A DNA stretch of 64,000 bases from Natronosalvus vescus (GTDB lineage Archaea > Halobacteriota > Halobacteria > Halobacteriales > Natrialbaceae): assembly GCF_023973145.1 (NCBI RefSeq), contig NZ_CP099546.1, positions 2,170,001-2,234,000 of the forward strand, read 5' to 3'. The first letter of the stretch is position 1. Every line of letters starts with the position of its first letter. Below the pieces are notes generated by a model. The model worked only from the letters and a program-made list of their open reading frames with translations, had not been told where the DNA came from and ran no database searches. The position numbers and the translations under genes are program-made. Of the stretch, positions 52,004 through 59,243 are shown piece after piece.

Positions 52004-54466
52004 TTACAGCGACCGCGAAGAGTTGAGCACCACGAGCGTGCTGCTCGTCGCCATAGCAACCGCCGCGAGTAACGGGTTGAGGAACCCGGCGACGGCCAGC
52101 GGGATGGCGATCGCGTTGTAGACGAACGCCCAGGCGAGGTTCTGTCTGATCCGCCGGTGAGTGGCGCTCGCGACGGCGAACGTCTCGGCAACCGACTCGA
52201 GGTCGTCGGAGACGATCACCGCGTCGGCGGCGTCGGTGGCCAGTTGCGTCCCGCTCCCCATGGCGATCCCGACGTCGGCAGCCGCCAGGGCGGGGGCGTC
52301 GTTGCTGCCGTCGCCGACCATCGCCACCGTCCCGCGCGAGCGAAGTCGTCGGACGGTTTCGGCTTTGGCTTCCGGCGGGACGCCAGCAAACACCCGGTCG
52401 ACGCCATCGACAGCCCTGAACCGATCGGCAGCGGCGCCCTCGTCGCCCGTGATGACGATGACCTCCCGGCCCGCCGACAGCGTTTCGACGGCCGACTCCC
52501 ACTCCGCTCGCGGTGCGTCTCCGACGACGATCACGCCGCGAGCAGCCCCCTCCCAGCCGACGACGACCGGGACGTCGCCGTCAGCTCTGGCCCGTTCTAT
52601 CGTCTTCTCGAAGTCCTCCGGGATCTCCCACTCGTTCTCGTCGAAGTGGTCGGGATGGCCGACGAGTACGCGGGTTCCATCGGGGAACTCGTCGTCGACG
52701 ACCATGCCAGCGACGCTTCGGGCCGTCCGCTCGAAGGTCTCGGTCGCCGCTGCCGTTGTGCCCGGCATCGTGTCGCTGTGCGTGTCTCCTTCGAGCCCCT
52801 GTTTGCTCGCCTTGGCGATTGCCGCCGCGATCGGGTGCTCGGAGAGCCGTTCGACCGCGGCCGCGCGCTCGAGCACGGCGTCGGGATCGTCGCCGACGAC
52901 CGCCTCGACCGACATCGAGCCTTCCGTGAGCGTGCCGGTTTTGTCGAAGGCGACGACATCGACGCCGGGGGCGTCTTCGAAGATGCTCTCGGCAGCGACG
53001 ACGATGTTGCGCGCGGCCGCCGACTGCACACCTGACGCGATTGCCAGCGGCGTCGCCAGACCCAGTGCGCAGGGACAGGAGACGATCAACACGGTGAGGC
53101 CGACGAGGAGGGCTGCCGTCGGGCTCGAGCCGGTCGCGAGCATGACCGCCGTGGCGATGGCGGCGACCGCGATCACCAGCGGGACGAAGATCGTCGCGAG
53201 TTTGTCGGCGAGTCGCTGCACACCGGGGCGAGCACTCTGAATCCGCCAGAGCAGGTCGACGAGACGATCGAGGGTGCTCTCGGCGTCCGGCCCGACCTCG
53301 ATTACGAGCGGGGCGTCCGTGACGACGGTTCCGCCGCGAACGGCGTCGTCGACGGCTTTCTCGACGGGGAGCGATTCTCCAGTCATCAGCGACTCGTCGA
53401 CGGCGGCTTCCCCCTCGAGGACGGTGCCATCGAGCGGGACGCGCTCGCCGGGTTTGACGAGGAGCGACTCGCCAGATTCGACGTCGGAGACCGGGACGCG
53501 CTCGCCGGTGTCGTGGCGGCGCGCCTCCGCGACCTGTTGTTCGGTTAGGTCGGCGAGCAGGCCCGCTGCTCGGCGTTTGACCACGCCTTCGTAGTAGGTG
53601 CCGCCGGTGACGACGAGGATGATCGCCACGGAGACGTCGAAGTAGAGATCCGTCCGCCCCTCGAGCATCGCCAGGGTACTGTAGGCGTAGGCGGCCAGCG
53701 CAGCCAGGGAGACGAGCAGATCCATGTTCGGCATCCCCGCCCGCAGGCTCACGTACGCCCCCCGGAGTATCGGGAACCCGGTGTAAAACAGGACGAACGA
53801 CGTCATCAGCCAGATGTTCGCGAAGATGTAGAGCTGGTCGAACCGACCGAACTCGACGACGGGATCGTAGCCGAAGTAGGTGGGGTACAGAAAGAGCACG
53901 TACCACATCATCACCATCATGCCGAACAGGCCGCCGCCGGCGAGGAACTTCGCGAGCGCCTGCTCCTCGCCGTCGCTGCCCCGCCCGACGCCGCGTTCGC
54001 GGGCGTTGTAGCCGGCACCGGTCAGCGTCTCACGGAGGTCGTCCTCCTCCAGCCGGTCGGGGTCGTAGACGAGCCTGACGGTGTCGCTCGCGTAGCTGGC
54101 CTCGGCGGCGTGGACACCCTCGACGCTGATCGCTCGCCCCTCGAGAAACGCCTCGCAGGTGGCGCAGTGCATCCCGTCGACGGTGAAGAAAGCGTCCTCG
54201 CCGTCAACAGTCTCGAGGTCGTCGCCCTCGGTCTCGCCGTCGATCGTCGCTCGGACGTCGCGCGCCGTCGACTCCTCGAGGTCGCCGAGTGCGTGATGTA
54301 CCTGCAGGCAGCCCTGACAGCAAAATTGCCCGCTAACGTCGTCGCCGGTGACCGGGTCGGCCGGAAGCGGGAGGCCACAGAGGGAACAACCGTCCTCGTT
54401 CGTACTCGTGGAGTCGCCGCTGGAGGTCACGCTCGAACCGGCGTCCGCGGATGGTGGCGACGTCAT
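52004..54466 (-). CDS. Copper-transporting P1B-type ATPase (CcoI/FixI-like)
   Basis: An 820-residue heavy-metal ATPase. Order: an N-terminal metal-binding segment with C27, C30, C49, C50 and C53 (the treble-clef-like type seen in FixI/CcoI and CopA2), an HMA domain with C101-x-x-C104 in GMHCATCEAF, eight membrane helices with the CPC motif (C464, C466), phosphorylation site D508 in DKTGT, the SEHPIA motif and GDGSNDAPAL hinge. The N-terminal pattern and the adjacent oxidase point to copper export for oxidase assembly, not detoxification. It is the third gene of the operon that starts at 55527, 21 bases after the SafE-like gene. Confidence 0.9.
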   Translation of the reverse strand: MTSPPSADAGSSVTSSGDSTSTNEDGCSLCGLPLPADPVTGDDVSGQFCCQGCLQVHHALGDLEESTARDVRATIDGETEGDDLETVDGEDAFFTVDGMHCATCEAFLEGRAISVEGVHAAEASYASDTVRLVYDPDRLEEDDLRETLTGAGYNARERGVGRGSDGEEQALAKFLAGGGLFGMMVMMWYVLFLYPTYFGYDPVVEFGRFDQLYIFANIWLMTSFVLFYTGFPILRGAYVSLRAGMPNMDLLVSLAALAAYAYSTLAMLEGRTDLYFDVSVAIILVVTGGTYYEGVVKRRAAGLLADLTEQQVAEARRHDTGERVPVSDVESGESLLVKPGERVPLDGTVLEGEAAVDESLMTGESLPVEKAVDDAVRGGTVVTDAPLVIEVGPDAESTLDRLVDLLWRIQSARPGVQRLADKLATIFVPLVIAVAAIATAVMLATGSSPTAALLVGLTVLIVSCPCALGLATPLAIASGVQSAAARNIVVAAESIFEDAPGVDVVAFDKTGTLTEGSMSVEAVVGDDPDAVLERAAAVERLSEHPIAAAIAKASKQGLEGDTHSDTMPGTTAAATETFERTARSVAGMVVDDEFPDGTRVLVGHPDHFDENEWEIPEDFEKTIERARADGDVPVVVGWEGAARGVIVVGDAPRAEWESAVETLSAGREVIVITGDEGAAADRFRAVDGVDRVFAGVPPEAKAETVRRLRSRGTVAMVGDGSNDAPALAAADVGIAMGSGTQLATDAADAVIVSDDLESVAETFAVASATHRRIRQNLAWAFVYNAIAIPLAVAGFLNPLLAAVAMATSSTLVVLNSSRSL

Positions 54467-54487: not shown

Positions 54488-55306
54488 TTACAGCGGTTGA
54501 TAGAACGGAATGTGCGGGTGGGGAAGATGGATCCCCAGAAGCATCAGTCCGTGCTGGAGCGGGACGTACCCGAGAACGAGAAAGCCGGCACCGAGTGCGC
54601 GATGAAGTCGAACGCGGGTCGTCATCGACAGCGAGCCCAGCAGTGTCCCGTAGGCGAACAACGTCGGAATCGTGCCGAGGCCGAGGGCCCCGAGCGAGAA
54701 CGCTCCCCGGATCGGATCGCCGAGCGCGAAGGCGTACAGGTAGGCGGGATAGATGATGGGGCACGGGAGCAGGCCGTGAATCGCCCCAAGTCCGACGATT
54801 CCGGGGGAGTTCGCCAGCCGGTCGACGCGACTCACGAGGACGCTCGAGAGCCGGGCGAACAGCGGGCCGACGAGGGGGAGTCCGTGCGGGATTCCGGGTT
54901 GTCCGCGGAGGTAGTAGGCGCCGCTGGCGATAATCGCGATGCCGACGAGGATCCCGGCCACGCCCCGGATCGGGTCGCCGACGGTCGAGACGGCATCGGC
55001 AGAGGTGTACGCGAGCGCTCCGACGAGGCCGAACAGGCCACCGATCGCGGTGTAACTCGCCGCACGCCCCACGTTGAACAGCGCGTGCTGGCGCACCTCG
55101 GTCAGCGAGAGGGTGTCGGGTCTCGAGGTACTCGATTTGGTGATTCGGTCGGCGTAGGTAGTCACGAGCGGGCCACACATCCCCAGACAGTGTGCCCCGG
55201 CGAGAATGCCGACCAGGAAGAAGACCAGCAGGTCGACGTGGCCGCTCGCCACGGTGGTTCCATGATCGTGTGCTAGAACGACTGGTGGGAGCCAGAGACC
55301 ACCCAT
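54488..55306 (-). CDS. SafE/DsbD-like membrane transporter
   Basis: A 272-residue membrane protein of the sulfite exporter TauE/SafE or DsbD_2 family. Text: VFFLVGILAGAHCLGMCGPLVTTYADRI (residues about 28-55, with the conserved cysteine pair), FNVGRAASYTAIGGLFGLVGAL, IHGLLPCPIIYPAYLYAFALGD and HRALGAGFLVLGYVPLQHGL. Such proteins often neighbour ccoI in bacterial cbb3 loci, where they are thought to help copper or thiol delivery. The start is ATG 55306, two bases after the upstream stop, and the ATPase follows 21 bases downstream. A His-rich N-terminus (AHDHGTT) and C-terminus (HLPHPHIPF) may bind copper. Confidence 0.85.
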   Translation of the reverse strand: MGGLWLPPVVLAHDHGTTVASGHVDLLVFFLVGILAGAHCLGMCGPLVTTYADRITKSSTSRPDTLSLTEVRQHALFNVGRAASYTAIGGLFGLVGALAYTSADAVSTVGDPIRGVAGILVGIAIIASGAYYLRGQPGIPHGLPLVGPLFARLSSVLVSRVDRLANSPGIVGLGAIHGLLPCPIIYPAYLYAFALGDPIRGAFSLGALGLGTIPTLFAYGTLLGSLSMTTRVRLHRALGAGFLVLGYVPLQHGLMLLGIHLPHPHIPFYQPL

Positions 55307-55308
55307 CC

Positions 55309-55527
55309 CTACCGGGCACCGGAACCGTCATCGGTTGTCTGGTGACCGTGCTCATCACCTGCAATCGGTCCAGTTGCGACGTACAGCGCAGCGACGATAA
55401 TAACGACGTTGATGACCGTCACGACACCGGCCAGACTCGCACCACCGAACCCGTACCAGAGGGCGGGAGCGATCGCCAGCAGTCCGAGTGCAGCTACCCA
55501 GCGAACCGGCAGTCCGTCGATACTCAT
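55309..55527 (-). CDS. Small membrane protein, first gene of the copper-delivery operon
   Basis: A 72-residue protein: MSIDGLPVRWVAALGLLAIAPALWYG, then a second helix (GVVTVINVVIIVAALYVATGPI) and a His-containing soluble end (DEHGHQTTDDG). It begins an operon with the SafE-like and ATPase genes (two-base gap to the next). The TATA box at 55551 supports the ATG at 55527. Its role is unknown; it could be a small assembly factor or subunit. Confidence 0.72.
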   Translation of the reverse strand: MSIDGLPVRWVAALGLLAIAPALWYGFGGASLAGVVTVINVVIIVAALYVATGPIAGDEHGHQTTDDGSGAR

Positions 55528-55550: not shown

Positions 55551-55559
55551 GCATAAAGG
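55551..55559 (-). promoter_or_regulatory. TATA-like box of the copper-delivery operon
   Basis: On the minus strand it reads CCTTTATGC, centred 28 nt before the ATG at 55527. It lies nine bases from the palindrome at 55568-55586. Confidence 0.6.
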
Positions 55560-55567
55560 TCGATCCA

Positions 55568-55586
55568 GTTCCCAGGTCGTGGGAAC
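55568..55586. promoter_or_regulatory. Palindromic operator, copy 1
   Basis: GTTCCCA-GGTCG-TGGGAAC, perfect 7-bp arms with a 5-base centre, between the divergent copper-delivery operon and the oxidase operon. It ends 41 bases before the oxidase ATG at 55627 and starts 41 bases after 55527, so it could control both. Copies 2 and 3 are at 58518 and 58912. Confidence 0.75.
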
Positions 55587-55626
55587 GGGTAGAATGTTGA
55601 GTAGGCAACCGTCGCTAGCACCAGGT

Positions 55627-55827
55627 ATGTCATCGGACGCTGTGGAACTAGAGCCCCAGATTAGTCACGACGACGAACTGGAACGCCAGATTGGTCACGA
55701 CGAGTTCGATCCCGTCGGAACGCTCGCGTTAATCGGACTGTACTTTCTGATTCTGGTCTTAATGTGGTTGTTCATGTACTTCGTCGAATTCCTCGGTAAC
55801 GATCCGACAGTGGTGGGGATGGTATGA
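55627..55827 (+). CDS. cbaD: Small subunit of the ba3-type oxidase (CbaD-like)
   Basis: A 66-residue single-helix protein: an acidic N-terminus (SSDAVELEPQISHDDELERQIGHDEFDP) and one membrane helix (TLALIGLYFLILVLMWLFMYFVEFLG). It is the first gene of the oxidase operon and overlaps subunit II by ATGA. In Natronomonas the ba3 oxidase has two such small subunits; the name is assigned by position. Palindrome copy 1 lies just upstream of the weak promoter. Confidence 0.78.
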   Translation: MSSDAVELEPQISHDDELERQIGHDEFDPVGTLALIGLYFLILVLMWLFMYFVEFLGNDPTVVGMV

Positions 55828-56708
55828 ACATTCACGCCTACGAGAAACTCTGGTTGATCGCGGCGTTGCTCTTGATCGTGGGCTTCGTCGCGACGATCAC
55901 GTACGGGGCCGTCGGGTTGGGCATCGCGATGGTGGACGACTCCGAAGAGACGCTCGATCCGAACGCGCTCGACGAACACGAACGCTTCGGTGACCTCGGC
56001 GTCCACCAGACGGGTGAAAACCAGTACGACGTCAACGTTCGAGCCTACCAGTTCAACTACGACCCCGGGACGACGGCCGTCCACGACCCGATCGTCCTTC
56101 CCGAAAATAGCGAAGTGACCTTCTACGTCACCAGCTCCGACGTCATTCACAGCTTCAGCCTCGTCGGAACGAACGTGAACTCGATGGTCATCCCCGGTGA
56201 GGTATCCGCGATGACCGTCGAGTTCGGTGACCCCGACGAGTACGGGATCCTCTGTAACGAGTACTGTGGCTCCGGCCACCACGCCATGGAGGGAATCGTT
56301 CAGGTCGTCCCCGAAGAAGACTTCCACCTCTTCTCGATCGAGTCCGTCGACGCTCACGAATCCGTCGAACCCGGAGACGACCTCGAGCTGACGGCCACCG
56401 TGGCCAACGATGCGCTCGCGGAAGAGACGGCGGCGGTCGACCTCGAGATCGGCGACGAGACCTACGAGAACGAGGTCACGGTCGACGCCGAGTCGACGGG
56501 CACGGTCACGTTCACCGTCGACACGGGCAGCCTCGACACCGACGATCTGGAGGCACTCGACTGGACGGTTACCGTCGAATCGGGTTCGCCGGCAACGTTC
56601 GATGACGGCACCGAAAGCGGCAGCGTCGACCTCGAGGGACAGGGCGAGGATGAGACTGGAACGGACGATGATGGAACCGCAACCGAAGACGAGGAGGGAG
56701 ACGAATGA
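55824..56708 (+). CDS. cbaB: Heme-copper oxidase subunit II (CuA, ba3 type)
   Basis: A 294-residue subunit that holds the CuA centre. An N-terminal helix (KLWLIAALLLIVGFVATITYGAV) is followed by the cupredoxin domain. The ligands H109, C144, E146, C148, H152 and M155 (DVIHSF and CNEYCGSGHHAM) match the Thermus ba3 spacing exactly. After residue 165 there is an extra 130-residue region that looks like an external beta-sandwich (LFSIESVDAHESVEPGDDLELTATV ...) ending in an acidic tail; this is not in the Thermus protein. It overlaps cbaD and cbaA by four bases each. Confidence 0.92.
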   Translation: MNIHAYEKLWLIAALLLIVGFVATITYGAVGLGIAMVDDSEETLDPNALDEHERFGDLGVHQTGENQYDVNVRAYQFNYDPGTTAVHDPIVLPENSEVTFYVTSSDVIHSFSLVGTNVNSMVIPGEVSAMTVEFGDPDEYGILCNEYCGSGHHAMEGIVQVVPEEDFHLFSIESVDAHESVEPGDDLELTATVANDALAEETAAVDLEIGDETYENEVTVDAESTGTVTFTVDTGSLDTDDLEALDWTVTVESGSPATFDDGTESGSVDLEGQGEDETGTDDDGTATEDEEGDE

Positions 56709-58435
56709 GTGCCTACATCGATAGATTCCCGGCAGAAGCAAAAGTAATTAGATCGGCGTTTTACGCTTCGTTCATCGCGCTCGCATTGGGGGCGGCGTTC
56801 GGGCTGATCCAGACGCTCCACCGGACGGACTTCGTCCGGATCATTCCGTCGGATATGTACTACACCGTGCTGACAGCCCACGGGGTGTTCATGGTCGTGA
56901 CGTTCACGATCTTCTTCCTCGTCGCCGTGTTCACCTGGGCGGTGACGACCAGCCTCGATCGAGAGGTCGAGGACATTCGATTTACCTGGTCGTGGTACGG
57001 CCTGATGTCACTCGGGACGCTGTTCGCCGGCGTCGCGATCCTGGCCGGGTTCACCGACGCCGTCGACATGAGTGCGGACGTTCTGTTTACGTTCTACGCA
57101 CCCCTGCAGGCCCATCCGCTGTTTTACATCGGACTGGTACTATTCGTCATCGGGACGTGGCTCGCCGGGGCCGACTGGTTCCGCTCGTGGTGGGCCTGGA
57201 AACAGGAGAACCCCGACGAACGAATTCCGCTGCCGACGTTCATGGTCTTGACGACGATGATCATGTGGTACCTCGCGACCATCGGCGTCGCGATTTCGAT
57301 CATCGTCTTCCTGCTGCCGTGGTCGCTCGGCCTCATCGACACGGTCAACCCGACGCTCACGCGGACGCTCTTCTGGTTCTGGGGCCACCCAGTCGTCTAC
57401 TTCTGGCTGATGCCTGCGTACATGATGTGGTACCTGTTGTTACCGACGGTGTCCGGCGGTCGCCTGTTCAGCGACCCGCTCGCCCGCGTCGTGTTCGTCC
57501 TCTTCTTGCTGCTGTCGACGCCCGTCGGCATCCACCACCAGTACCTCGATCCCGGGATCGCTGAAGGGTTCAAGTTCATCGCGATGACGAACACCATGTT
57601 CCTGCTCTTGCCAAGCCTGCTGACGGCGTTTACCGTCGTCGCGAGCATGGAACACGGAGCTCGCCAGCGCGGCGGCGAAGGGTATTTCGGCTGGCTCGGC
57701 GCACTGCCGTGGCGTGACCCGGTCTTTACGGGCATGGCGCTCGCCGGGCTGATGTTCGCCGCCGGCGGGTTCTCCGGGATGATCAACGCCGGGATGAACA
57801 TCAACTACCTCGTCCACAACTCGCTGTGGGTGCCCGGCCACTTCCACCTCACCGTCGGCACCGCCGTCGCCCTGACGTTCATGGCCGTCTCCTACTGGTT
57901 CATCCCGCAGGTGACCGGCCGGGAACTCGTGAGCAAACCGATCGCACTCGTCCAGGTCGTCCTGTGGTTCGTCGGGATGACCTTCATGTCGAACGCAATG
58001 CACCGGGGCGGCCTCCTCGGCATTCCGCGACGGACTGCTGAACCGGAGTACACCGGCTTCGAGTTCGAAACTGCCGTCGGCACCATCGGCGAACTCAACG
58101 CTCAGATCGCTCTCGGTGGCGTCTTGCTCACCCTCTCGACCGTGTTGTTCCTCGGGAACATGCTGATCACCGCGTTCAACGACGAGGCGGTCACCCTCGA
58201 GGACAACACCATCCCGAAACCGCTCTCGGGGCCGGAGGATGCACCGCTCGTCCTCGACAACATCAAGCTCTGGACGGCGATCGCTGTCGTACTCGTTATC
58301 CTCGCGTACACGCTGCCCCTCGCAGCCATCGTCGAACGAGGCGGTCTGTTCGGGCCCGGTGGTGACGCCTTCCCGATGATGATCGACCTCGTTCGAACGG
58401 GGCTGCTCGAGAGCCTGTCCGCGGTGACCGGCTGA
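56705..58435 (+). CDS. cbaA: Heme-copper oxidase subunit I (ba3 type, B family)
   Basis: The catalytic subunit that reduces oxygen to water and pumps protons. It is 576 residues with about 13 membrane helices. The active-site pattern matches B-family ba3 oxidases: H228 and Y232 (WGHPVVYFW, the cross-linked His-Tyr pair), H277 and H278 (GIHHQY) and H379/H381 (GHFHLTVG) for heme and CuB, with the same spacing as Thermus ba3. Overlaps cbaB by ATGA, so the first three genes form one operon. The donor is probably a halocyanin. Confidence 0.94.
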   Translation: MSAYIDRFPAEAKVIRSAFYASFIALALGAAFGLIQTLHRTDFVRIIPSDMYYTVLTAHGVFMVVTFTIFFLVAVFTWAVTTSLDREVEDIRFTWSWYGLMSLGTLFAGVAILAGFTDAVDMSADVLFTFYAPLQAHPLFYIGLVLFVIGTWLAGADWFRSWWAWKQENPDERIPLPTFMVLTTMIMWYLATIGVAISIIVFLLPWSLGLIDTVNPTLTRTLFWFWGHPVVYFWLMPAYMMWYLLLPTVSGGRLFSDPLARVVFVLFLLLSTPVGIHHQYLDPGIAEGFKFIAMTNTMFLLLPSLLTAFTVVASMEHGARQRGGEGYFGWLGALPWRDPVFTGMALAGLMFAAGGFSGMINAGMNINYLVHNSLWVPGHFHLTVGTAVALTFMAVSYWFIPQVTGRELVSKPIALVQVVLWFVGMTFMSNAMHRGGLLGIPRRTAEPEYTGFEFETAVGTIGELNAQIALGGVLLTLSTVLFLGNMLITAFNDEAVTLEDNTIPKPLSGPEDAPLVLDNIKLWTAIAVVLVILAYTLPLAAIVERGGLFGPGGDAFPMMIDLVRTGLLESLSAVTG

Positions 58436-58517
58436 TCGTCTCCTTTCGCGTCTTTCCTGTCGCTTCGCCTCTTTGTCGGCCGGACTCGTCCCTCGAGTGT
58501 CGATTTTCCAACCCCGG

Positions 58518-58536
58518 ATTCCCACGGCGTGGGAAT
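58518..58536. promoter_or_regulatory. Palindromic operator, copy 2
   Basis: ATTCCCA-CGGCG-TGGGAAT, perfect 7-bp arms (8 with the outer G/C pair). It lies 42 bases before the ATG of the leader ORF at 58578, almost the same distance as copy 1 to cbaD, so it should serve a promoter starting there. Confidence 0.75.
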
Positions 58537-58577
58537 CGGCGCGAGCGTACTTGGTCGGCCGCCTCGTCTCTGTCACC

Positions 58578-58643
58578 ATGAACCGACAGTCGTCATCCGG
58601 CGTTGGCATTTCCACGGCCGCTCGAACGGAGGTGAGCGGCTGA
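58578..58643 (+). CDS. Possible 21-residue leader peptide before the cbaE-like gene
   Basis: ATG 58578 opens MNRQSSSGVGISTAARTEVSG, ending at a TGA whose last base is the first base of the next ATG (TGATG). It contains GGAGGTG (58628-58634), a ribosome binding site eight bases before that ATG. The operator spacing suggests the transcript starts near 58578. It may be a translated leader that couples the small oxidase gene; the peptide has no recognisable family. Confidence 0.4.
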   Translation: MNRQSSSGVGISTAARTEVSG

Positions 58644-58840
58644 TGCGGATCTCGAGGGGAGCCCTGCTCGTGTTGTTGGCGTTCACCGTTCCAGTTCTCG
58701 TCGAACTCAGAACAGTACTCGGCTTCTTCGACATCGAGCTCTCGCTTACGGGCGTGCTGATCATCGGTGTCCTCGTCGTCGGTGGCATCCTCTTCTGGGC
58801 GACGTTCCCGGAGCGTGACCAGAGCACCGCCACGGCGTAA
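58643..58840 (+). CDS. cbaE: Small membrane subunit near the ba3 oxidase (CbaE-like)
   Basis: A 65-residue protein with two hydrophobic helices (ALLVLLAFTVPVLVELRTVLGFF and LTGVLIIGVLVVGGILFWATFP). It follows cbaA by 207 bases and is preceded by palindrome copy 2 and by a leader ORF that overlaps its start by one base. Position and size fit the small CbaE subunit of haloarchaeal ba3 oxidases; the name is by context only. Confidence 0.65.
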   Translation: MRISRGALLVLLAFTVPVLVELRTVLGFFDIELSLTGVLIIGVLVVGGILFWATFPERDQSTATA

Positions 58841-58911
58841 ACTGTCTCGGAGGTGCCTGGTACCTCGAGATTCTGTGTCTTCATCAGGTAACAGTCGTTT
58901 TTCGCGTCCTC

Positions 58912-58930
58912 GTTCCCACCGACTGGGAAC
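58912..58930. promoter_or_regulatory. Palindromic operator, copy 3
   Basis: GTTCCCA-CCGAC-TGGGAAC, perfect 7-bp arms. It lies 50 bases before the ATG at 58980, upstream of the third unit of the locus. Confidence 0.75.
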
Positions 58931-58979: not shown

Positions 58980-59243
58980 ATGCCAGAGAACACACACGAC
59001 ATCGGGAACACCCGCTGGTTCCGTGCGATAACGGGGACGCTCTGGGCGCTGGTCGTCGCGCTCACCGCAGTCGGACTCTACACGGTTGCCCCGGAGCAAA
59101 TTGCGATGCTGTACACCTCCGAATACGTCATCAGTACGGCGCTGTTCGGAACCTTCATGCTCGGTGTCGCCTTCTTCGTCTTCAGGCACTACCCAATTCG
59201 AACGCCGAGCGGGCGACGCGACCGACGGGTACACTCGCGGTAG
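58980..59243 (+). CDS. Small membrane protein of the oxidase locus
   Basis: An 87-residue protein with two hydrophobic helices (ITGTLWALVVALTAVGLYTV and YVISTALFGTFMLGVAFFVF) and a basic tail. It is preceded by palindrome copy 3, so it should be co-regulated with the oxidase. It may be another assembly or structural subunit; I do not recognise a family. Confidence 0.68.
   Translation: MPENTHDIGNTRWFRAITGTLWALVVALTAVGLYTVAPEQIAMLYTSEYVISTALFGTFMLGVAFFVFRHYPIRTPSGRRDRRVHSR

Follow-up and report, generated by a model that had tools for sequence, protein, structure and literature searches.

NarO has been described as the only known transcriptional regulator of haloarchaeal denitrification (PMC11218638). 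The denitrification motif associated with it in Haloferax, CGAAYATDKTYG, is a palindromic promoter element of respiratory genes, including those for halocyanins and NirK, and is linked to oxygen. The upstream activating sequence (UAS) of the Bat-controlled Halobacterium gene bop is an activating element that lies just 5' of the core promoter and is used at low oxygen. VNG1179C and CopR, Lrp-type regulators with a TRASH domain, control copper-handling genes in archaea. To our knowledge, the basis on which haloarchaea select one or another of their many terminal oxidases, and bring these into line with the supply of copper and heme, has not been worked out. Here we analyze a 64,000-nucleotide stretch of Natronosalvus vescus DNA (the window; G000:C1:2170001-2234000 of the 3.84-Mb host genome) in which three copies of the inverted repeat TTCCCA-N5-TGGGAA accompany a cba-type terminal oxidase locus. 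The repeat is found at promoters of respiratory and copper-handling genes. Comparative sequence evidence indicates that it is very probably a genuine regulatory site, shared and conserved within a respiratory regulon.

An inverted repeat in front of cba oxidase genes

All three palindromes proposed by the initial annotation are present at the positions it gave, and each is perfect over 19 bp (Table 1). Measured from the 17-mer core, site 1 is equidistant from two divergent start codons, with 41 nt to that of cbaD and 41 nt to that of the copper-side operon. Site 2 precedes the start codon of a short leader open reading frame (ORF) by 42 nt, and site 3 lies 50 nt before that of a gene for an 87-amino-acid membrane protein; the 41 to 42 bases claimed earlier for the first two copies agree with these measurements.

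The pattern does not occur at the random rate that the initial annotation had raised as the alternative. With expected counts computed from the base composition of the window, the exact 17-mer is found three times in the window (0.0023 expected) and seven times in the host genome (0.14 expected). Neither a control with reversed arms nor the composition-matched palindrome CTTCCA-N5-TGGAAG has an exact site in the host genome, and sites with one mismatch number 15, versus 3 for the reversed-arm control. Across 61 genomes of the family, the five-base spacing accounts for 74 sites, whereas the other eight spacings from N2 to N10 sum to 51; the reversed control has no site with the five-base spacing and 21 when the nine spacings are pooled. 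CTTCCA-N5-TGGAAG has 36 sites in these genomes, most of them the same centres repeated across genera, and the case for the TTCCCA site therefore rests on position and gene content rather than on raw counts. In this respect, 59 of 72 distinct exact sites in family genomes lie within 110 nt of a credible gene start. The centre of the 72 sites is near background and the outer base is weakly biased, the arms being fixed by the search itself. Conserved arms around a free centre are the pattern expected of a site for a dimeric regulator. Separately, we observed palindromes that are longer and have an N7 centre (TTCCCACATCTAGTGGGAA is an example), which recur across genera (G017, G036, G041, G050, G054, G058, and G021) and represent a different element.

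Alignment of 77 site contexts in the direction of the gene revealed a single sharp AT peak 11-16 nt past the site, with an AT fraction of 0.79 at the best column. Averaged over 30 gene families, the AT fraction is 0.64 at 28-33 nt from the start of the site compared with 0.39 nearby, and 0 of 5000 permutations reached the height of this peak. The peak is most simply read as the TATA box, which would place the site directly upstream of the BRE/TATA. Such a fixed distance upstream of the BRE/TATA is characteristic of archaeal activator-type elements. Constant spacing to the TATA box is needed by an activator and not by a repressor. The position is thus activator-like, and we consider it likely that the regulator of the site works as an activator.

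The site is also conserved in related species; the initial annotation had named a lack of such conservation upstream of cba loci as refuting its proposal. Among 80 named cba loci that were compared, the degenerate form TTCYYR-N5-YRRGAA is found in 37 of 78 named cbaD upstream regions, versus 0.05 in shuffled sequences. A palindrome with no more than two mismatches is similarly placed 5' of the cba operon in many Natrialbaceae and in Haloferax, Halobellus, Halorientalis, and Halohasta; the Haloferax site, TTCCCACCGCGTTGGAA, falls narrowly outside the degenerate form. At the same threshold, no palindrome was found upstream of Haloarcula cba loci. Five other loci (L030, L031, L154, L316, and L322) share the symmetric layout of site 1, with 41/41 or 41/42 nt separating the palindrome from cbaD and from the divergent copper-side gene, and counterparts of site 3 precede genes for small membrane proteins 3' of cbaA by 45-48 nt in Haloferax and Halobellus. 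The nearest named relatives of the host cba locus, those of Natronosalvus hydrolyticus and a Natrialbaceae metagenome-assembled genome, are 89-90% identical.

Target genes of the site

Targets were named by Pfam from the genes that neighbor the sites. Elsewhere in the host genome, exact sites precede a multicopper oxidase gene by 47 nt, a gene for a DoxX protein by 58 nt, and etfB, in an operon for an electron-transfer flavoprotein (ETF), by 51 nt, while sites with one mismatch lie 53 nt before a halocyanin gene, 41 nt before a cupredoxin gene, and 42 nt before the gene for a DmsR-like HTH_10 regulator (R2). The gap between exact sites and start codons in family genomes is typically 41-62 nt. 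On the oxidase side, the targets in the family comprise cbaD with its divergent partner, small membrane protein genes of the cba locus, and subunit I of cytochrome bd (L135). Targets among electron carriers and copper proteins are halocyanins, multicopper oxidases, a NirK-like protein, and ETF. The remainder include DoxX, an Mrp/NUBPL-type Fe-S carrier, TFB, a protoglobin-MCP transducer resembling HemAT, DUF2249, and two regulators designated R1 and R3. In other families, the form TTCCCR-N5-YGGGAA precedes genes for UspA and a small membrane protein of the cba locus in Haloferax, and in Natrinema it precedes a radical SAM gene that resembles AhbC/D of heme synthesis; genome G062 has an exact site between two radical SAM genes of this AhbC/D-like type.

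The initial annotation had suggested that one regulator ties oxidase synthesis to copper loading. As an architecture, the coupling of both by a single site is well supported by the arrangement of sites and genes, but the regulon turns out to be wider than oxidase plus copper.

The genes and promoter elements of the locus are collected in Table 1. The cbaD protein has no Pfam match. The overlap of the leader ORF with the next start codon suggests that the gene for the 65-amino-acid membrane protein is translated through stop-start coupling. The same arrangement 5' of this gene recurs in L042, L043, L060, and L063, where the leader peptide has diverged.

Table 1 Sites, promoter element, and genes at the cba locus, in positions of the window
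Feature	Position	Strand	Remarks
Site 1, GTTCCCA-N5-TGGGAAC, GTTCCCAggtcgTGGGAAC	55568-55586	.	Perfect 19-bp palindrome
Site 2, ATTCCCA-N5-TGGGAAT, ATTCCCAcggcgTGGGAAT	58518-58536	.	Perfect 19-bp palindrome
Site 3, GTTCCCA-N5-TGGGAAC, GTTCCCAccgacTGGGAAC	58912-58930	.	Perfect 19-bp palindrome
P-type ATPase with HMA domain	52004-54466	-	Candidate for copper transport
DsbD_2 (SafE-like) membrane protein	54488-55306	-	Candidate for copper delivery
72-aa membrane protein	55309-55527	-	First gene of divergent operon at site 1
TATA-like element TTTATG of divergent copper-side promoter	55552-55557	-	About 11 nt from site 1; fits general AT peak at 11-16 nt
cbaD, small oxidase subunit	55627-55827	+	First in cba operon; named from position and Haloferax cba gene order
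cbaB, oxidase subunit II, copper-site domain	55824-56708	+	COX2
cbaA, oxidase subunit I	56705-58435	+	COX1
Leader ORF, 21 codons	58578-58643	+	Stop overlaps next start codon (TGATG)
65-aa membrane protein	58643-58840	+	Kept downstream of cbaA
87-aa membrane protein	58980-59243	+	Site 3 in front

Candidate regulators

As the initial annotation had stated, no regulator gene adjoins the sites in the window; other genomes nonetheless provide a plausible candidate. This protein, R3, has a double winged helix and belongs to the HVO_0163 family (PF24266, HTH_HVO_0163_N; Pfam), named for an ArsR-type protein of Haloferax volcanii. R3 was found in 125 of 145 genomes of the class, and the host gene lies at G000:C1:1412194-1412703. 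All 26 genomes checked encode at least one member of the HVO_0163 family. The palindrome occurs within 150 nt upstream in 32 of 61 R3 regions (shuffle mean, 0.01), two of which are from the Haloarcula group, and the DUF7471-R3 genes of Haloferax have the variant TTCCCGAAAATCGAGAA or TTCTCGAGATTCGAGAA in front. Gene neighborhoods also connect R3 with the regulon. In Halohasta salina (L085 7737-13425), the cba locus runs on into genes for R3, an ABC-2 membrane protein, an ABC ATPase, and NosD plus NosL, a set for copper maturation next to the oxidase. R3 adjoins a small membrane protein gene bearing an exact site in Natribaculum and a relative, and it lies near and co-directional with a DsbD_2 gene in genomes G064 and G150. 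Finally, independent protein data that we count in favor of R3 show a joint rise under hypochlorite of HVO_0163, a universal stress protein, Tfb1, and Tfb2 (PMC10294847); TFB and Usp genes are among those that carry the site. We found no function, site, or regulon for HVO_0163 in the literature searched, where a single paper names it, as raised by hypochlorite.

In most genomes examined (L267, L272, L014, L144, and others), R3 adjoins DUF7471, a small predicted membrane protein that is rich in histidine and contains conserved RRR and HHxxEHxxD residues. DUF7471 as a membrane sensor that gates R3 is an appealing but tentative proposal, and a rather unlikely one.

Several observations weigh against R3. 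The upstream region of R3 in the window's own genus is devoid of the site, and Haloarcula carries relatives of R3, yet its cba loci do not have the site. Loss of sites was not found to track loss of R3: genomes with no R3 match at E<=1e-15 retain plausible sites before DoxX and a small membrane protein gene (G080), DoxX (G114), etfB (G100), the radical SAM pair (G062), and Mrp (G038). Winged-helix proteins are often repressors, and some of the single targets may be due to chance. Comparison of R3 with solved structures returned a single weak match to the MarR family (E 0.025); an AlphaFold model of the L085 protein built without an alignment had a mean pLDDT of 54 and was not used. Because R3-less genomes keep sites and the site is absent at R3 in the window's genus, we regard R3 as the best single candidate, not as an established reader of the palindrome, and give it about an even chance of being so.

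The same five genomes bear on a second possibility, namely that the reader is another, universal regulator such as the R3 paralogue R4 and that R3 is only a conserved target. R4-type members are the only HVO_0163-family proteins left in all five, and the N-terminal HTH domains of R3 and R4 fall in one Pfam family. R4 or another regulator may thus share or replace R3 at the sites. Against this, the cba and copper genes repeatedly neighbor R3, and none of 17 R4 upstream regions contains the palindrome, for which reason R4 was dropped as an autoregulated reader. A universal regulator in place of R3 is a possibility that we consider less probable than R3 by a clear measure.

HTH_10 proteins are the known oxygen-linked activators in haloarchaea (PMC11218638), and one of the Bat/DmsR/NarO type, such as R1 (BAT plus HTH_10) or the DmsR-like R2, could read the site as an activator. 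The site is found in 24 of 35 R1 upstream regions compared with 0.03 by shuffling, and the host R2 gene, with its near-exact site, lies beside the etf operon. However, R1 promoters (L197-L225) bear two boxes of their own similar to the published NarO motif, CGAACATATTCG and CGAACGTGTTCG, so R1 looks like a target that has a different box. Moreover, G005, a genome of the window's genus, is devoid of R1 and keeps four sites. R1, which we initially favored, was dropped for these two reasons. R2 (DmsR_N plus HTH_10) was seen only in the host genome, and no full-length orthologue was found near sites elsewhere. An HTH_10 reader is therefore unlikely. With NarO-like boxes standing next to the TTCCCA site in its promoters, this one regulator gene is under two layers of putative control. 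In the host genome, R1 is followed by genes for a halocyanin, a 4Fe-4S protein, and NrfD (L194 7179-10412; G000:C1 ~3560178-3563411), and the halocyanin gene is preceded by a site with one mismatch. This cluster possibly provides a path for electrons from quinol to halocyanin; complex III is said to be missing from the clade.

A copper-sensing Lrp/TRASH regulator of the VNG1179C/CopR kind would account for the many copper proteins among the targets, and VNG1179C is a copper-linked regulator of Halobacterium (PMC4236453). The targets extend beyond copper handling, however, to bd oxidase, ETF, Mrp, TFB, HemAT, and DoxX, and the GC-rich five-base centre differs from the AT-rich motifs in FFRP ChIP data (PMC4177876), a comparison that did not include the VNG1179C site itself. 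Such a reader is improbable. A last alternative, in which the repeats arose by chance or mark the ends of mobile elements, is contradicted for all three window sites and very improbable overall. Mobile behavior is limited to the one centre of TTCCCACCGTGTGGGAA; the centre, flanks, and target vary among real sites, which stand at a constant distance from the TATA box and recur before orthologous genes. TTCCCACCGTGTGGGAA, the seventh exact site of the host genome (L008 4767), lies among transposase-type genes and recurs at L147 4045 and in many haloarchaeal genomes; it is probably a mobile-element end and was counted as a false positive for motif scans, an explanation that accounts for L008 and L147 only.

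Proposed mechanism and relation to described systems

On balance, we favor an explanation in which the palindrome is an activating site of a haloarchaeal respiratory regulon that is read by R3. TTCYYR-N5-YRRGAA would be the putative binding site of a dimeric regulator, its centre situated ~50 bp before the inferred start site and directly upstream of the BRE/TATA. The bound protein would most likely help to recruit TBP/TFB and thereby turn the gene on. The regulon would comprise the cba and bd oxidases together with copper delivery, halocyanins and multicopper oxidases, ETF, the supply of heme and of Fe-S, and secondary regulators. A single dimer bound at site 1 would serve both divergent leaderless promoters, such that the oxidase and copper delivery rise together. 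R3, the most likely reader, would be autoregulated, and its neighbor DUF7471, with the conserved HHxxEHxxD motif, may gate it. The signal could be oxygen or redox state rather than copper alone, although we put this forward with somewhat less than even confidence.

One may speculate further that DUF7471 couples R3 to the membrane as a switch: by binding heme, copper, or quinone, DUF7471 would sense how the respiratory chain is running and gate R3, and R3 would then activate the whole regulon for oxidases and for the supply of copper, heme, and Fe-S via TTCYYR-N5-YRRGAA. We consider this model doubtful as a whole. If true, haloarchaea would have a first global regulator for the supply of their terminal oxidases, and membrane-linked redox sensing in archaea would gain a new type. 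The site, the list of targets across genera, and a candidate with a genetically tractable orthologue (HVO_0163 of Haloferax volcanii) make the retuning of respiration directly testable.

The TTCCCA/TGGGAA motif has no description in archaea in the literature searched, which covered few subscription papers. The window sites do not contain the NarO box: that motif has CGAA...TTCG arms and a short centre, its core genes differ, and it is separate from the TTCCCA site even in the R1 promoters where both occur. VNG1179C and CopR respond to copper stress, whereas the TTCCCA regulon is a respiratory one that extends to enzymes without copper. Arms of the ACC...GGT type occur in the bop UAS as well, but the Bat regulon is that of the purple membrane. 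Among described proteins, HVO_0163 belongs to the family of R3, a gene that in many genera is preceded by the palindrome.

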